A stretch of 54,707 bases of DNA from Clostridiaceae bacterium (GTDB lineage: Bacteria; Bacillota; Clostridia; DUPQ01), in assembly GCA_012729955.1 (NCBI GenBank), contig JAAYBX010000151.1, positions 1-54,707 of the forward strand, written 5' to 3'. Position numbers and translations under genes: made by a program. Below are positions 47,445 through 54,111 of this stretch, piece after piece (the first letter of the stretch is position 1; the number at the start of each line of letters is the position of its first letter). A model generated the notes under the pieces. The model saw nothing but the letters and a program-made list of their open reading frames with translations. It ran no database searches and had not been told where the DNA came from.

Positions 47445-48719
47445 TTACTTAGATGTCGCAGGTACTTCCTCTCCTATTACTACATTTAAAGTTAAGGTCT
47501 CGCTGCCTCTTACAACAATTACTTCAACAGCCTGGCCTACTGTACAGCCATCTATGAGTTCCTTCAGATGAGTCATGCTTAACACTTCCACTCCGTTAAA
47601 TGTGGTTATGCAGTCAAACTCTTTTATACCAGCCTTCTCAGCTGCTGAACCCTCTTCAATATTTGCAACATATACGCCAAGTTTAGTGAGATTCATCCCG
47701 TACATCATATTGTACCAGTTAAGAGTGCTTTGTGATGTTATCTCCCCCAACCCTACTCCAAGGTATGGTCTGCCTTTTACATAACCGAAACTCACTATGT
47801 CATCTAAAACTTCCTTAATATCATTAATCGGTATCGCAAAACCTATTCCGTCAATCTCGCTTCCATATGATTTTGCATTGATTATTCCGATAAGCTCGCC
47901 TCTGGTGTTAATGAGTGCTCCGCCTGAATTTCCAGGATTAACTGCAGCATCAGTCTGAAGAAGAACCATTTTCTCATTATCTAAGGTAATCTCTCTTTCC
48001 AAACCGCTTATATACCCAACTGTCAAGCTCTGATTTAAATATCCTAAAGGATTCCCTATTACCAGTACCATTTCACCTACCACAATCTCATCACTGTTGC
48101 CAAGCACCATATATTTAAGATTTTCTGAATCAATCTTTAAAAGAGCAAGATCCAGCTGCACATCCAATCCGACAAGCTGGGCAGTATAGCTTTCCTTATC
48201 ATTGAGATACACAGTTATTTTCTTTGCATTCGCTATAACATGATTGTTGGTGACTATATATCCGTCTTCACTTATTATGACTCCTGAACCTGAACTTGTT
48301 GATGTAAAAGTTGACCATCCTGAACCTGATTCCACTTCAACGACAATACCTACTATTGCATCAACAGTATCTGCATATATATCAGCTACCGAACCGTATT
48401 CCTTCTCAATGCTCGATGCAGTATAGATTGAAGTATTCCCGTCTCTTCTTGACTGCGACTGGTCTGTCACTGTCGAAGATTCTGAAGGTAAAGGCTCACT
48501 GTTCAGTTCAAGTGTTTTGTAATAAAACCTGCCAGCAAGAAATCCTCCTCCGAGCCCTGCCATCAAAGAAAATATTGAACAAACTGCAACAGCAATCACA
48601 AGAGTTTTCTTTAATGATGACATCTTCTTCTTTTCCTGCATCTGGCTGTATGCCATGCTGTTATATTGATAATATAGGTTTGTTGGATTGTTTTCGTTCC
48701 TGTTAGATCCGTTATCCAT
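47445..48719 (-). CDS. htrA: S1C-family serine protease HtrA/DegP-like with PDZ domain
   Basis: 424 aa. A cytosolic N-terminus, one membrane anchor (about 38-62, KTLVIAVAVCSIFSLMAGLGGGFLAG), then a trypsin-like protease with the triad His160 (TNNHVI), Asp190 (QLDLALLKI) and Ser265 (NPGNSGGALI), and a C-terminal PDZ domain (about 320-415). It degrades or refolds misfolded proteins at the outer face of the membrane. AAGGAGGT precedes the ATG. Its promoter carries the same operator as the response regulator gene 3.5 kb upstream, so it is probably under that two-component system, as htrA is under CssRS or CiaRH in other Firmicutes. Confidence 0.96.
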   Translation of the reverse strand: MDNGSNRNENNPTNLYYQYNSMAYSQMQEKKKMSSLKKTLVIAVAVCSIFSLMAGLGGGFLAGRFYYKTLELNSEPLPSESSTVTDQSQSRRDGNTSIYTASSIEKEYGSVADIYADTVDAIVGIVVEVESGSGWSTFTSTSSGSGVIISEDGYIVTNNHVIANAKKITVYLNDKESYTAQLVGLDVQLDLALLKIDSENLKYMVLGNSDEIVVGEMVLVIGNPLGYLNQSLTVGYISGLEREITLDNEKMVLLQTDAAVNPGNSGGALINTRGELIGIINAKSYGSEIDGIGFAIPINDIKEVLDDIVSFGYVKGRPYLGVGLGEITSQSTLNWYNMMYGMNLTKLGVYVANIEEGSAAEKAGIKEFDCITTFNGVEVLSMTHLKELIDGCTVGQAVEVIVVRGSETLTLNVVIGEEVPATSK

Positions 48720-48750: not shown

Positions 48751-48780
48751 ATTTTATCTATTACTTGTGATAAAATTGTG
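48751..48780 (-). promoter_or_regulatory. htrA promoter with response-regulator operator
   Basis: Minus strand: CACAATTTTATCACAA (48765-48780), then 8 nt, then -10 TAAAAT (48751-48756), then 31 nt to the ATG. The site is a direct repeat CACAA-N6-CACAA with 11-bp spacing and occupies the -35 position, where no TTGACA is seen. A further CACAA lies 20 bp upstream of it. The arrangement is the same as at the response regulator gene. Confidence 0.7.
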
Positions 48781-48871
48781 AAAATATCTCATATATTGTG
48801 TGAGAACTATATTATTGCTGACATATCTTTTACCTTAACATCACACATCAATCACATTCTTGGAATAGCAT

Positions 48872-49047
48872 AGAGATGACATTAGTTTTTACAGGCATTA
48901 AACGTAGCAGAAATATTACGCAAATCTATATGTGTGTTATCTCTGCACGAATCTATGAAAGGAGGGTAATATACAGAGGGCACATAGAGAAAATATCAGC
49001 CAAGTCAAATAATGTGCCATAAGCCGCTATATGCGGCTCTGTTTTTA
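48872..49047 (+). ncRNA. candidate structured RNA ending in an intrinsic terminator
   Basis: The gap 48720-49108 has no gene. On the plus strand AGAGATGACA (48872-48881) pairs with TGTTATCTCT (48935-48944) over 10 bp (one G-U), enclosing a possible CGTA/TACG hairpin (48903-48906, 48917-48920). GGCACAT (48979-48985) pairs perfectly with ATGTGCC (49012-49018), and the terminator follows 4 nt later. CTCTG (48941-48945) can alternatively pair with CAGAG (48974-48978), competing with the first helix. No open reading frame follows the GGAGGG inside it, no plus-strand gene lies downstream, and no convincing promoter was found. Class unknown; boundaries are those of the helices. Confidence 0.5.
49022..49045 (+). 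terminator. intrinsic terminator of the candidate RNA
   Basis: AGCCGC and GCGGCT stem with a TATAT loop, then CTGTTTTTAC on the plus strand. The minus strand lacks a T run after the stem, so it does not serve the leftward radical SAM operon. Confidence 0.75.
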
Positions 49048-49108
49048 CATACTAAAATATGATTAATTACAATTATATTAACAATACAGATTGATTTCAT
49101 TGCTTTTA

Positions 49109-49972
49109 TTAAAAGAAACTTAATTGCTCGACATTGGTTGGAAACTCATTCATGTATGAGAATATCTTGTTTACATCATGCATTACACTGTGTTTTTCAC
49201 ATTCCTCATGGAATATACTCATTAACTTGTCATTATTATCGCTTCTGCATTCATATGAATAACCATATCTTCTGATATATTTCTGCTTTATGCCAGGAAA
49301 GTATTTATCCAGAGCAGCATAAAAGTACTCTCTGTCCCCTTCCCGCATTGTGGTACCCATACCAAATGATATGATACCCTTCACGCCTGCATCAAAACAG
49401 TATTCCATTACTCCTCTTATATTTTCCTCAGTATCGTTTATAAATGGCAGTATAGGAGACATCCATACGACTGTGGGTATCTTATTCTGCTGGAACACTT
49501 TTAAAGCTTCATATCTTTGTTTTGTCGTACAGACTTCCGGTTCCAGTATTGCACATAACTGTTCATCATATGTAGTAAGTGTCATCTGTATAACGCTTTT
49601 TGCTTTTACATTGATGGACTTATACAGATCAATATCCCTTAATATCCTGTCGGATTTTGTCTGTATCGCTATGCCGAAACCATATCTGTCTATCAGTTCC
49701 AGACACTTTCTTGTGAGCATTAGTTCTTGTTCAATATGCAGATAGGGATCACACATTGCTCCTGTACCTATCATACATTTGCTTCTTTTGGAAATAAGTG
49801 CTTTTTCCAGAAGTTCAGGAGCATTTTCCTTGACCTCGATATCTTCAAAATCATGCGTAAACTGATAACACTTGCTGCGGCTGTCACAGTATATGCATCC
49901 ATGAGAACATCCGCGGTATATGTTCATACCATTGCGAGCGGACAATATACCTTTTACCTGGGTGAAGTGCAT
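49109..49972 (-). CDS. SPL-family radical SAM protein
   Basis: 287 aa. The Fe-S motif NIYRGCSHGCIYCDSRSKCYQF (CX3CX2C, about 18-39) and the following layout (IGTGAMCDPYLHIEQELMLTRKCLELI, GFGIAIQTKSDRILRDIDLY, VVWMSPILPFINDTEENIRGVMEYCFDAGVKGIISFGMGTTMREGDREYFYAALD) match radical SAM proteins annotated as SPL/splB-like or Rv2578c family. The photoproduct-lyase Cys and Tyr set of true SplB cannot be confirmed, so repair activity is not claimed. AAAGGGA precedes ATG. It starts 17 bp after the histidine kinase stop, so it is probably the third gene of the regulator operon. Confidence 0.87.
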   Translation of the reverse strand: MHFTQVKGILSARNGMNIYRGCSHGCIYCDSRSKCYQFTHDFEDIEVKENAPELLEKALISKRSKCMIGTGAMCDPYLHIEQELMLTRKCLELIDRYGFGIAIQTKSDRILRDIDLYKSINVKAKSVIQMTLTTYDEQLCAILEPEVCTTKQRYEALKVFQQNKIPTVVWMSPILPFINDTEENIRGVMEYCFDAGVKGIISFGMGTTMREGDREYFYAALDKYFPGIKQKYIRRYGYSYECRSDNNDKLMSIFHEECEKHSVMHDVNKIFSYMNEFPTNVEQLSFF

Positions 49973-49989
49973 GATTTTCCCTTTATACT

Positions 49990-51519
49990 TTAATCAATAT
50001 GTTTATTAAGCTCGAACCAGAATACTACGCCTGCATTACTGTTGTATGCGCCATAACTGCAATTGTGCATTTCCATAATCGCTTTTACTATGGACAGGCC
50101 TAATCCATATGACTTGCTGTTGCCACCTCTGGATTTATCTTCTTTATAGAAGCTGTTAAAAAGATTCGGAATCGATTGGTCTGATATTCCTTGATGCGTG
50201 TTATATATGCTTGTCCTGATTTTACCATCTATTTCATTTATATTAATATTTATTATCTTTTTATCATCAGTATATTTTATAGCATTTTCCAGAAGGTTGG
50301 TTATGACATGTGTTATCAGGTTATAGTCACCTTCTACTATATAGTCGTCCTGATAATTGAAAGTCAGATGGATATTACCCTGTTCTATCATTATACTCAG
50401 GTCATTCATAACTGACTCTACTGCCTCATTCAGACAGAATATCGTATTTTCAATCCTGGCTGTTCCGCTTTCCAGCTGTGAAAGCGTAAGAAGCTGGTTT
50501 ACCATAAGGTTCATTTTAATCGCCTGGTCAGTAATTATTAAAAGCTGGCTCTTTGCTTCCTCGTCTTCTTTATACTTATCCATTAATAGCTCGCTGTATG
50601 CCATTATTAATGAAAGAGGAGTCTTAAAGTCATGTGAAACAGAGGCTATAAATTCCTTCTCTGTCTTATTTGAAGTCTCCTGTTTTTTCAAATCCATCGT
50701 TAAAAGCTGCGCACGCTGTTCAAGATAATCGATGCTGTCCTGCAGTTTTATACTCATTTCATTAATGCTTTTGCCTAGATCGCTTATCTCATCCTTTCCG
50801 GAAACCTTGCAGCTTTCGGTAAAATCCAGATTAGATATCTTATTTGCGACCTTGTTAATATTAACTATCGGCTTGGTTATCTTTTCGGATATTATAACGA
50901 CAGCTATTACAGCTATAAGAAGAGTTACAAGTGAGACATACAGAACGAATCTCTTTGCAGTATTTGCAGTTGTCTCAATGAATTCTTTTGGCGAACTTAA
51001 TATGATATATGACCTGAATACATTACCGCTCAGTTCATCATTGCTTTCATAGACATATGTAATAAGATTAATGCTCGGTATATCCACGCTTACGTCACTG
51101 GTCTTGTAATCATATATATTTGTTAATGAATTCAATTCTCCAGTGTTTATTAATGTCTCTATGTATTCCTCCACCTGTTGTGTGTCAGAAGGATCAGAAA
51201 GCATGTCTCTGCCTGTTATCTTCGTTGCATACCCGATAACCGCATGGTTAGCAGTCTGATCATAAGCAAACCAGATTATATCAATGTTATTTCTTTCCAT
51301 CTCATCAAAAGTGTTTATTAGGTCGTATTCGTTATATGTTAAGGAAATATCATTATCTTCAAAATGACTATTCAGCTGCTCGGCATATTTCTTAAGTTCG
51401 TTGTGTTTGACATTTATATAGAAACGTTCAAAGACTATATTGCTGAACAATACTGTAGCAAGAACATTAACAATAAGTATGCATAAGATTATGAGTATAA
51501 GCTTATTGCGAAGTTTAAT
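49990..51519 (-). CDS. sensor histidine kinase, proposed AUU start codon
   Basis: 509 aa with the proposed start. TM1 about residues 7-29, an extracytoplasmic sensor domain (about 30-188), TM2 about 191-211, HAMP (about 212-265), HisKA with FIASVSHDFKTPL (His296), and HATPase with NLLENAIKYTDD, then SKSYGLGLSIVKAIM. It phosphorylates the regulator encoded just upstream. No ATG, GTG, TTG or CTG would keep TM1: the frame opens after a TAA, and the first usual start is TTG at 51450, inside the end of TM1. ATT at 51519 lies 7 nt after a GGAGG. The htrA and regulator operators suggest that envelope stress is sensed. Confidence 0.9.
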   Translation of the reverse strand: MKLRNKLILIILCILIVNVLATVLFSNIVFERFYINVKHNELKKYAEQLNSHFEDNDISLTYNEYDLINTFDEMERNNIDIIWFAYDQTANHAVIGYATKITGRDMLSDPSDTQQVEEYIETLINTGELNSLTNIYDYKTSDVSVDIPSINLITYVYESNDELSGNVFRSYIILSSPKEFIETTANTAKRFVLYVSLVTLLIAVIAVVIISEKITKPIVNINKVANKISNLDFTESCKVSGKDEISDLGKSINEMSIKLQDSIDYLEQRAQLLTMDLKKQETSNKTEKEFIASVSHDFKTPLSLIMAYSELLMDKYKEDEEAKSQLLIITDQAIKMNLMVNQLLTLSQLESGTARIENTIFCLNEAVESVMNDLSIMIEQGNIHLTFNYQDDYIVEGDYNLITHVITNLLENAIKYTDDKKIINININEIDGKIRTSIYNTHQGISDQSIPNLFNSFYKEDKSRGGNSKSYGLGLSIVKAIMEMHNCSYGAYNSNAGVVFWFELNKHID

Positions 51520-51531
51520 GGCTATACCTCC
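51517..51531 (-). promoter_or_regulatory. ribosome binding site and AUU start codon of the histidine kinase
   Basis: GGAGG (minus strand, 51527-51531) lies inside the last codons of the response regulator gene (stop TAG at 51522-51524). ATT at 51517-51519 follows after exactly 7 nt and is in the kinase frame. An in-frame ATA lies 1 nt after the site, too close to be used. Confidence 0.7.
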
Positions 51532-52187
51532 AGCTTATATCCGTATTTACGTACTGTTTTGATAATATCCCCTGAGTCATTAAGCTTTGTACGCAAACAC
51601 TTCATATGAGTATCCACTGTTCTTGCATCTCCGAAAAAATCATATCCCCATACTGCTGACAGGAGTTTTTCTCGGGAATGTACGACATTTTTGTTTTGTA
51701 TAAGGTACTGCAGAAGATCAAATTCCTTAGGAGTAAGATTGACCTTTTCCCCTTTAACATAAACTTCATGCTCTTTTACTTTTAATAGTATATCATTTGC
51801 CGTAATATCGTTGTCTGCAAACATTCCGGCTCTTTTTAAGATTGCTTTCACTCTTGATACAAGCACTGCCGGGGAAAAAGGTTTTGTTATATAATCATCT
51901 GCTCCAAGTTTCAATCCCTGCAGTTCATCATATTCCGTATTTCTTGCCGTAAGTATCAGAACAGGAACAGCTGATTCCAGTCTCAAGGTCTTTAAGACCT
52001 CAAATCCGTCCAGTTTTGGCATCATTATGTCAAGAATAATTAAAGATACATTTTCACTATAGAATATGTCTAAAGCTTCCTGTCCGTCTTTTGATTCAAG
52101 TACTTGGTAACCTTCCTTGACCAGACAAGTCTTCAGAAGATTCCTTAAAGCAGGTTCATCTTCAGCAATTAGTATCTTGTTCAGCAT
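51522..52187 (-). CDS. OmpR/PhoB-family response regulator
   Basis: 221 aa. Receiver domain: acidic pair Glu9-Asp10 (IAEDEP), phospho-acceptor Asp53 (LIILDIMMPKLDGF), Thr80 (LILTAR), and Lys102 (DYITKPFSP). The C-terminal winged helix (about 125-221) is KVNLTPKEFDLLQYLIQNKNVVHSREKLLSAVWGYDFFGDARTVDTHMKCLRTKL...IIKTVRKYGYKLEV. The start is at MLNKIL, 5 nt after GGAGG. Its promoter contains the same direct repeat as htrA, so it probably activates itself and htrA. The kinase starts within its last codons and the SPL protein follows. It resembles the role of CssR or CiaR, but orthology is not shown. Confidence 0.96.
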   Translation of the reverse strand: MLNKILIAEDEPALRNLLKTCLVKEGYQVLESKDGQEALDIFYSENVSLIILDIMMPKLDGFEVLKTLRLESAVPVLILTARNTEYDELQGLKLGADDYITKPFSPAVLVSRVKAILKRAGMFADNDITANDILLKVKEHEVYVKGEKVNLTPKEFDLLQYLIQNKNVVHSREKLLSAVWGYDFFGDARTVDTHMKCLRTKLNDSGDIIKTVRKYGYKLEV

Positions 52188-52218
52188 CGCAACCTCCAAT
52201 AATGTGCTCTTTTTATTA

Positions 52219-52257
52219 ATTATATCACCAATTTGTGATAAAACTGTGTTTTATCAC
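52219..52257 (-). promoter_or_regulatory. response-regulator promoter with autoregulatory operator
   Basis: Minus strand: CACAGTTTTATCACAA (52233-52248), 8 nt, -10 TATAAT (52219-52224), 31 nt to the ATG. It is a direct repeat CACAG-N6-CACAA and also the core of a perfect 9-bp inverted repeat (52235-52243 with 52249-52257, GTGATAAAA/TTTTATCAC). The -35 region is occupied by the repeat and lacks TTGACA, as expected for an activator-dependent promoter. Confidence 0.7.
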
Positions 52258-52285: not shown

Positions 52286-54085
52286 CTACTTTATGAGTTT
52301 AACCGAATCATCCATATACATATCATCATCCGGTATGTTAGTCACATCATATTTATCATGGTACTTCTGATAATGCTCCATATAATGCTGCTGGTCTGAC
52401 TGTTTTACATCATGCAGATATTCATGTGTGTCAAATAATCCTTCAGCAATCTGAATTGTGAGAACCGCGAGGTTAGAGCAGTGGTCAGATACCCTTTCAT
52501 AATTACTTATGAGGTCAGAAAGTATGAAACCTAATTCTATTGTGCAGTTGCCACCCTGCAGTCTTTCAATGTGGTGAGCCTTAAGAATGATTTTCAATTC
52601 GTCAATAACCTGTTCTAAAGGTTCAACCTTATATGCCATTTCAAAATCATTGTTTAAGAATGCTCCTATTGACAGTTCCAGAATTTCTTCAACAGCAGCA
52701 GCCATAACATCAAGCTCTTTGTATGCCTGTGTTGAAAATGTAATATTTTTATCATATAGTTCTTTAGCTACATCAAGTATATTACATGCATGGTCGCTGA
52801 TTCTTTCGAAGTCACTTATGCTGTGAAGAATTTTTGATATTTCCTTACTGTCCTTATCATTTAACTCTCGGCCGCTCAATTTAACAAGATAAGATCCGAG
52901 CTTATCTTCGTATGTATCAATAAGGTCCTCATTGTCTGTAATTATCTGAGCCTTTTTCGCATCATAATGATTTACTAAAGGCAAAGCCATAAGTATGGTT
53001 TCTTTTGTGATGTTCGCCATTGTGACAATATGCTTTTTGCACTGTTCCACAGCTATGGAAGGAGTATTTAAAAAACGTTCATCCAGTACTATTTTTTCTA
53101 CAGTTACACCTTTATCCTTAATGGTTTTTTCAGATAATTTAACCAGCATTTTTGAGAAAGGCAATAATACTAGCGTGGATAATAGGTTAAATAAAGTATG
53201 GACAATTGCAATCCCTACAGGGCTTAGTGAAGAATCCATGAATGTGAATTTTAAAACTGCATTTAACCCATAGAATAAGGCTATAAAAAGCATAGTTCCA
53301 ATAAGATTGAAATAAAGATGTATCATTGCTGCTCTTTTTGCATTTTTATTGGTTCCTATACAGGATATTAAAGCTGTAGCACATGTCCCTATATTCTGAC
53401 CTAATATTATAGGAATAGCACTTCCATATGTTATTGCACCAGTAGTGGATAATGCCTGCAGGACACCTACAGATGCAGATGAGCTTTGTATTATTGCAGT
53501 AAATATTGCGCCAGTCAGAATACCAAGGATAGGGTTTGAAAACAGTGTAAGTATATTTGTGAAGCCCTCAACTTGTGCAAGAGGCTTGACTGCTCCTGAC
53601 ATAGTTGACATACCAAACATCAGAATAAAGAATCCTAATAAGATTCTGCCTACATCTTTGTTCTTATTTCTTTTTCCTGCCATTAAGAGAGCAATTCCGA
53701 TAATACCGAGTATAGGTGCGAATGTATCAGGTTTGAAAAGCTTAACAATAAATGCGTCGCTGTCCAGACTGACCAAACTTAGTATCCATGAGGTTACTGT
53801 TGTTCCGATATTTGCTCCCATTATAACCCCGACAACCTGGGACAATTTCATTAGTCCTGAGTTAACAAAACCCACCAGCATTACAGTAGTAGCTGAGGAA
53901 GATTGTATAAGAGCAGTTACAGCAATACCGATTAATACGCCTTTAATGGGTTTACTTGTAGCTTTCTCGATAACAGATTCAAGTCTGCGCCCTGCTACTC
54001 TTTCTAGTCCTGATCCCATTATACTCATACCGTATAGGAACAGTGTCAGTCCTGCGAATATTGTTATTATAGAAAAAAAGTCCAT
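52286..54085 (-). CDS. Na+/phosphate cotransporter family protein with C-terminal PhoU-like domain
   Basis: 599 aa. Two inverted Na_Pi_cotrans repeats carry the QSSS motifs: IQSSSATTVMLVGFVNSGL (about 59-77) and IQSSSASVGVLQALSTTG (about 200-217), with about 9 membrane helices up to residue 325. Residues about 360-580 form a cytosolic PhoU-like helical domain (EDLIDTYEDKLGSYLVKL, SDFERISDHACNILD, SNYERVSDHCSNLAV, with the E/DxxxD metal motifs). It imports phosphate, or a related substrate, with sodium. The start at 54085 follows GAGGTGG; a GTG at 54091 overlaps that site. A weak promoter lies upstream. It is downstream of the 5S rRNA and its terminator. Confidence 0.93.
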   Translation of the reverse strand: MDFFSIITIFAGLTLFLYGMSIMGSGLERVAGRRLESVIEKATSKPIKGVLIGIAVTALIQSSSATTVMLVGFVNSGLMKLSQVVGVIMGANIGTTVTSWILSLVSLDSDAFIVKLFKPDTFAPILGIIGIALLMAGKRNKNKDVGRILLGFFILMFGMSTMSGAVKPLAQVEGFTNILTLFSNPILGILTGAIFTAIIQSSSASVGVLQALSTTGAITYGSAIPIILGQNIGTCATALISCIGTNKNAKRAAMIHLYFNLIGTMLFIALFYGLNAVLKFTFMDSSLSPVGIAIVHTLFNLLSTLVLLPFSKMLVKLSEKTIKDKGVTVEKIVLDERFLNTPSIAVEQCKKHIVTMANITKETILMALPLVNHYDAKKAQIITDNEDLIDTYEDKLGSYLVKLSGRELNDKDSKEISKILHSISDFERISDHACNILDVAKELYDKNITFSTQAYKELDVMAAAVEEILELSIGAFLNNDFEMAYKVEPLEQVIDELKIILKAHHIERLQGGNCTIELGFILSDLISNYERVSDHCSNLAVLTIQIAEGLFDTHEYLHDVKQSDQQHYMEHYQKYHDKYDVTNIPDDDMYMDDSVKLIK

Positions 54086-54111
54086 TCCCACCTCAAAATC
54101 AAATTATCAAT

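Follow-up and report, generated by a model that had tools for sequence, protein, structure and literature searches.

A TCACA direct-repeat operator common to the promoters of an OmpR-type response regulator, htrA and predicted small RNAs in a genus of Clostridia

The promoters of an OmpR-type response regulator (RR) gene and of a nearby htrA gene in a genus of Clostridia share an operator, a TCACA direct repeat with an 11-bp period that lies 9 nt upstream of the -10 box and takes the place of the -35 box. Judging from sequence comparison, this operator probably serves an OmpR-family envelope- or secretion-stress system that switches on its own genes along with htrA and several small RNAs, following the logic of CiaRH with a different operator. 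The locus (Table 1) lies in the window, that is, the whole 54,707-nt stretch of DNA analyzed here (contig JAAYBX010000151.1).

Table 1. Features of the RR-htrA locus in window coordinates.
Feature	Coordinates	Strand	Remarks
HtrA/DegP-type membrane-anchored serine protease	47445..48719	-	PDZ domain
htrA promoter operator	48751..48803	-	TCACA half-sites in 11-bp register; kept in 4/4 genomes
Third operator, like form	48841..48871	+	TCACACATCAATCACA-N9-TAGCAT; divergent from htrA
sR1, predicted small RNA	48878..49046	+	Divergent from htrA; start inferred from -10; 3 genomes
Radical SAM protein	49109..49972	-	Between kinase and htrA; not at the G002 locus
Sensor histidine kinase	49990..51519	-	Extracellular region of ~165 aa, HAMP, HisKA, HATPase_c
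RR, OmpR/PhoB-type	51522..52187	-	221 aa; recognition helix TVDTHMKCLRTKL; Pfam
RR promoter operator	52219..52249	-	ACACA-N6-TCACA direct repeat 52234-52249; 16/16 site columns invariant
Na/Pi cotransporter-PhoU gene	52286..54091	-	Upstream neighbor of RR

The original prediction rested on two 16-mers, CACAATTTTATCACAA before htrA (48765-48780, minus strand) and CACAGTTTTATCACAA before the RR gene (52233-52248, minus strand), and placed them correctly: they differ at one base, and in the window both are separated by 8 nt from the -10 box (TAAAAT at htrA, TATAAT at RR), which in turn stands 31 nt before the ATG. CACAR-N6-CACAA occurs in the window at these two sites only (0.14 expected; at least two in 1 of 100 shuffles), and a search of the 2.28-Mb genome for CACARTTTTATCACAA returned exactly the same two, the next-best matches having 2 mismatches. 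At the RR promoter, the second TCACA is followed by a 9-nt spacer and a -10 box (52219-52224) with a TG at the extended -10 position. At the htrA promoter, the half-site pair occupies 48766-48781 and the -10 box 48751-48756, and a third TCACA half-site (48799-48803), in phase and 22 bp further upstream, is kept in 4/4 genomes. An additional operator of like form, absent from the original prediction, faces away from htrA; it was found in G000, G001 and G003, and G002 is without this intergenic region. No operator of the TCACA-repeat type was seen at the Na/Pi cotransporter-PhoU gene.

The RR combines a receiver domain (PF00072, Response_reg) with a C-terminal winged helix (PF00486, Trans_reg_C), both above the cut-off, and scores 212.3 bits against the PhoB equivalog TIGR02154, below its cut-off of 296.2. 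The predicted structure of the kinase sensor region, of low confidence (pLDDT 66), best matches PAS-like/WalK extracellular domains (E 0.01-0.02). At the N-terminus of the kinase frame (51510-51528, minus strand), there is no ATG, GTG or TTG in any of the 4 genomes (L022, L023, L024); the codon that follows the SD GGAGG and precedes the first membrane helix is AUU in 3 genomes and AUC in the other one. Translation thus probably begins at a non-canonical codon that has been conserved and would hold the kinase low relative to the regulator. G002 (contig C43, L039) lacks both the radical SAM gene and sR1, so that htrA comes right after the kinase.

We compared the 4 genomes of the genus, G000 (the source genome) and G001-G003 (public records Firmicutes bacterium ADurb.Bin146, Clostridiaceae bacterium AS08sgBPME_331 and Clostridia bacterium STD2_39); the genomes used are mostly metagenome assemblies with 78-98% completeness. 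G001-G003 carry both genes, with 72-82% identity for the kinase and 72-87% for HtrA. The original prediction staked itself on conservation upstream of the orthologues, and the sites are kept before both RR and htrA in 4/4 genomes: 16/16 columns of the RR site are invariant, versus 6/60 in the upstream flank (p 7e-12), as are 15/16 columns of the htrA site, versus 15/60 in the flank (p 7e-7). The 8-nt spacer to the -10 box is likewise kept in the orthologues of both genes. The identical 31-nt distance from the -10 box to the ATG, by contrast, is not kept and varies between 30 and 33 among orthologues (31, 30, 31, 31 for RR; 31, 30, 32, 33 for htrA). RR orthologues, 90-93% identical, are confined to the genus, and identity elsewhere in the family does not exceed 48%; in the two sister genera, no RR or kinase orthologues were found, and the operator motif occurred in 0/7 genomes. 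A second RR-kinase-HtrA cluster is found family-wide and is retained in this genome with a second HtrA (G000:C11, L140); in the sister genera, htrA of that different cluster is preceded by TTWACA-N5-TTWACA (L134-L138).

The spacing of the operator stands out from the background of alternative spacings. Across the 4 genus genomes, CACA-N7-CACA-N9-TANNAT has 25 matches, compared with 1 for a reversed-pattern control. When the gap within the repeat was varied from 2 to 14, 25 of the 41 matches fell at the 11-bp period, and when the spacer was varied from 3 to 17, 25 of 52 fell at 9 nt; the alternative periods and spacers have about 1-2 matches each. A refined pattern with one mismatch allowed gave 9, 11, 6 and 9 matches (35 in total), the control giving 0 in 4/4 genomes. 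Alignment of 31 sites on the -10 box revealed extra half-sites that had not been selected for, at -22 (8/31) and -33 (11/31), with few at other offsets: half-sites stand at -33, -11 and 0 in 4/4 genomes at htrA and likewise at the small RNA sR2, at -33, -22 and 0 at sR4, and at -22, -11 and 0 at sR3. This is the picture that regulator dimers bound head-to-tail along one helix face would be expected to leave. The originally proposed form of both promoters, a direct repeat of the OmpR type with an 11-bp period where a -35 box would stand, is supported and holds in the relatives. Several individual sites were set aside: one shared by G000:C22 and G001:C22 is in the wrong orientation to serve as a promoter for the neighboring HlyD-like gene, another (G001:C22:162703) lies within an ORF and is chance-like, and those at G003:C250:8392 and in G003:C55 also look like chance matches rather than operators.

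A binder of another family, either a palindrome-binding dimer of the CRP/FNR kind or a repressor of heat-shock genes like CtsR, was considered since the window's RR site can also be read as an inverted repeat of 10 bp (52235-52257, GTGATAAAAC-ACA-GTTTTATCAC) and chaperone and protease genes (Clp, hrcA, htrA) are among the targets. The inverted repeat is lost in G001, G002 and G003, and the htrA site has no palindrome, so that the direct repeat is likely to be the functional form. Given also the period of 11, the activator position relative to the -10 box and the direct orientation of the extra half-sites at -22 and -33, we consider a regulator of this kind very improbable and reject the palindromic reading of the RR site.

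Within the genus, the operator precedes the RR-kinase operon and htrA in 4/4 genomes each, a Clp/HSP100-type ATPase gene located after uvrA in 4/4 (one with a mismatch), and a LacZ-type beta-galactosidase gene, divergent from a gene for a beta-lactamase-fold membrane protein, also in 4/4; hrcA (G001 only) and smpB (G000 and G003) are weaker targets. Either member of the pair formed by beta-galactosidase and the membrane-anchored beta-lactamase-fold protein may be the real target (L061, L055, L056, L065), and beta-galactosidase has no obvious fit with envelope stress. The small regulon of the regulator itself and htrA, as originally proposed, is right about the shared site but too narrow, considering the Clp ATPase, beta-galactosidase and 4 predicted small RNA genes. 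Similarly, specificity of the site to this system holds for the exact 16-mer only, as the same promoter form recurs across the genome and the class.

The 4 predicted small RNAs (sR1-sR4) lie downstream of operator promoters in the genus, and one of them, sR1, is inside the window; their transcription starts and expression are inferred. sR1 contains a hairpin, GGCACAT..ATGTGCC, with a conserved loop (48979-49018) and a terminator (49022-49046), and its 3' part (48955-49048) has a fold z of -2.1. We rejected sR1 as a coding gene, there being no ATG, GTG or TTG after the SD-like AAAGGAGG; a weak frame similarity was judged by eye. sR2, ~60 nt long and located after rsmG in 4 genomes, exposes an unpaired CAUAAUUCAUUCCUC antisense to SD and AUG; its CAUA...UUCCUC (antisense to SD...AUG) is kept in 4/4 genomes, while the intervening bases vary. 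sR3 and sR4 are arranged in tandem opposite murA in 3 genomes and have exposed CCCCC/CUACCCC stretches and terminators. The fold z values are -4.8 for sR2, -7.5 for sR3 and -4.8 for sR4.

The favored mechanism would begin with the RR, whose gene lies together with that of its membrane-bound histidine kinase shortly upstream of htrA, being phosphorylated upon what is probably an envelope or secretion-stress signal. The phosphorylated RR would bind TCACA half-sites head-to-tail in an 11-bp register, the proximal half-site lying 9 nt upstream of the -10 box in place of the -35 box, and would recruit RNA polymerase, acting as an activator rather than a repressor. The RR would thereby raise its own operon, htrA, the Clp-type ATPase and the small RNAs, namely, sR1 opposite htrA, sR2 with its exposed anti-SD/anti-AUG, and sR3 and sR4 with exposed CUACCCC, and these RNAs would in turn keep target mRNAs from being translated by masking the regions around their start codons.

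A class-wide search provided an independent test. Applied to 291 class genomes, 4 from the genus and 287 outside it, the strict pattern matched 16 times within the genus and 47 times outside it; the reversed control had 0 matches in all 291. Individual examination of all 47 outside-genus matches showed that these sites mostly lie 18-90 nt ahead of an SD-led start codon. Five precede HtrA genes, in 3 families (f57, with three genomes, f19 and f44), and 6 are in the own promoters of OmpR-type RR genes; other targets are HlyD-type (4), DUF2680-type secreted proteins (6, family f23 included), an extracellular-type PPIase and HSP90. Using assumed base rates of 5 HtrA and 25 RR genes per 2500 and covering 39 of the 47 matches, the enrichment is p 2e-8 for HtrA and p 4e-6 for RR genes; the remaining 8 matches include no HtrA and no RR. 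The original prediction passed this test: an operator taken from the window leads to the promoters of htrA and of regulator genes in unrelated families. In family f27 (L154, L182, L183; G036, G185, G225), what follows the site is not a gene but a conserved RNA, ~85 nt long in 3 genomes, with a hairpin, an exposed C-rich UCUCCCCCUCAU and a strong terminator. These genomes also have another site (L155, L184, L185), followed by a conserved stretch that ends in a terminator and contains no evident gene. Rfam, at the gathering score and at a relaxed threshold, has no family for sR1-sR4 or the f27 RNA.

That such AT-rich promoters merely resemble each other by chance, or were conserved through closeness of the species, is scarcely credible: two 16-mers are a small sample and the 31-nt coincidence is unconserved, but the controls gave 0-1 matches against 25-35, a single period and a single spacer are enriched, and sites occur before htrA in unrelated families.

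Which regulator binds the sites is a separate matter. We infer that it is the RR encoded next to them. G000 encodes 9 OmpR-type winged-helix proteins above the Pfam cut-off, and the main binder might instead be another of these, or several overlapping paralogues, with the RR near htrA merely a target. The obvious candidate is the C133 RR (G000:C133:28717-29394, L118), whose own gene is preceded by TCACA-N6-TCACA, 12 nt before TATAAT. In G003, the counterpart of this RR (G003:C7, L044) is divergent from a gene for a DUF2680-like secreted protein, and genes of the DUF2680 type carry the site in f23; given the own-promoter repeat and this neighbor, the C133 RR may recognize this operator or one like it. 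We nonetheless find this alternative unlikely. The C133 spacer is 12, and no match with a 12-nt spacer is present in G001-G003; only the operon of the RR near htrA carries the exact combination of repeat and spacer, invariant in 4/4 genomes. The recognition helix of this RR also resembles those of most site-bearing RRs elsewhere: in 5 of the 6 (TVDTHIKMLRNSL type), the helix is closer to TVDTHMKCLRTKL than are those of the 7 other G000 RRs compared, and these 5 helices and TVDTHMKCLRTKL have a non-basic residue where most of the other compared G000 RRs have R, H or T. At 40-47% identity to this RR, the site-bearing RRs of the class are not clear orthologues.

Taken at its broadest, TCACA-N6-TCACA-N9-(-10) could be the operator of an undescribed Clostridia-wide envelope/secretion-stress response under a class of OmpR-type regulators, a counterpart of CiaRH and CssRS whose recurrent targets would be htrA, chaperones for secretion, efflux of the HlyD type, DUF2680 proteins and C-rich/anti-SD small RNAs, a proposal that we hold with about even confidence. 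In the open-licence papers searched, we found no description of a TCACA-repeat operator and, for this Clostridia group, no regulon for envelope or secretion stress whose operator is defined. A short, testable operator that precedes htrA in several families and would drive predicted small RNAs could provide such a regulon, along with a ready target list.

Among known systems, those of the PhoB/PhoP/WalR type share tandem half-sites with an 11-bp period, a form to which the TTWACA-N5-TTWACA before htrA in the sister genera also belongs, whereas here the half-site is TCACA and the position is adjacent to the -10 box. CssRS of Bacillus and CutRS of Streptomyces are secretion-stress two-component systems controlling htrA-type proteases (PMC12802291, PMC4812647); CutR recognizes TAWATAAA, unlike the TCACA repeat here, and has no site at its own operon, and the consulted parts of these sources describe no small RNAs for either system, whereas small RNAs are predicted here. 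With LisRK and LhrC of Listeria, the present system would share an envelope-stress two-component system (here a probable one) driving C-rich small RNAs (here predicted). The C-rich motifs of LhrC pair with Shine-Dalgarno regions (PMC4132741), but sR3 and sR4 have CUACCCC rather than repeated UCCC and no Rfam family in common with LhrC, and the LisR-responsive element lies upstream of -53, with no such repeat described (PMC4132741).

The closest parallel is CiaRH of streptococci, where the CiaR box, NTTAAG-N5-TTTAAG, lies 10 nt from the -10 box, the regulon includes htrA, and the strongest promoters yield csRNAs with anti-SD/anti-AUG stretches (PMC3091779, PMC8186281). Shared features are an OmpR-type RR, two half-sites with an 11-bp period close to the -10 box without a -35 box, htrA in the regulon, and several small RNAs, here predicted, from the same promoter form. 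Anti-SD and anti-AUG are both exposed, as in csRNAs, in sR2 (4/4 genomes), while sR3 and sR4 have C-rich stretches only; the likeness of sR2 to the csRNAs, as far as predicted structures go, is one of anatomy, not homology. The half-site, however, is TCACA rather than TTTAAG, with 9 rather than 10 nt to the -10 box, the recognition helix is TVDTHMKCLRTKL in place of the conserved VVEVYVSKVRKKL of CiaR (PMC3091779), and Clp and beta-galactosidase promoters and half-sites at -22/-33 are found here in addition. Differing from CiaR in both operator and recognition helix, the system does not belong to CiaRH; it would mean that the combination of htrA with small RNAs known from CiaRH has also arisen on a different operator.
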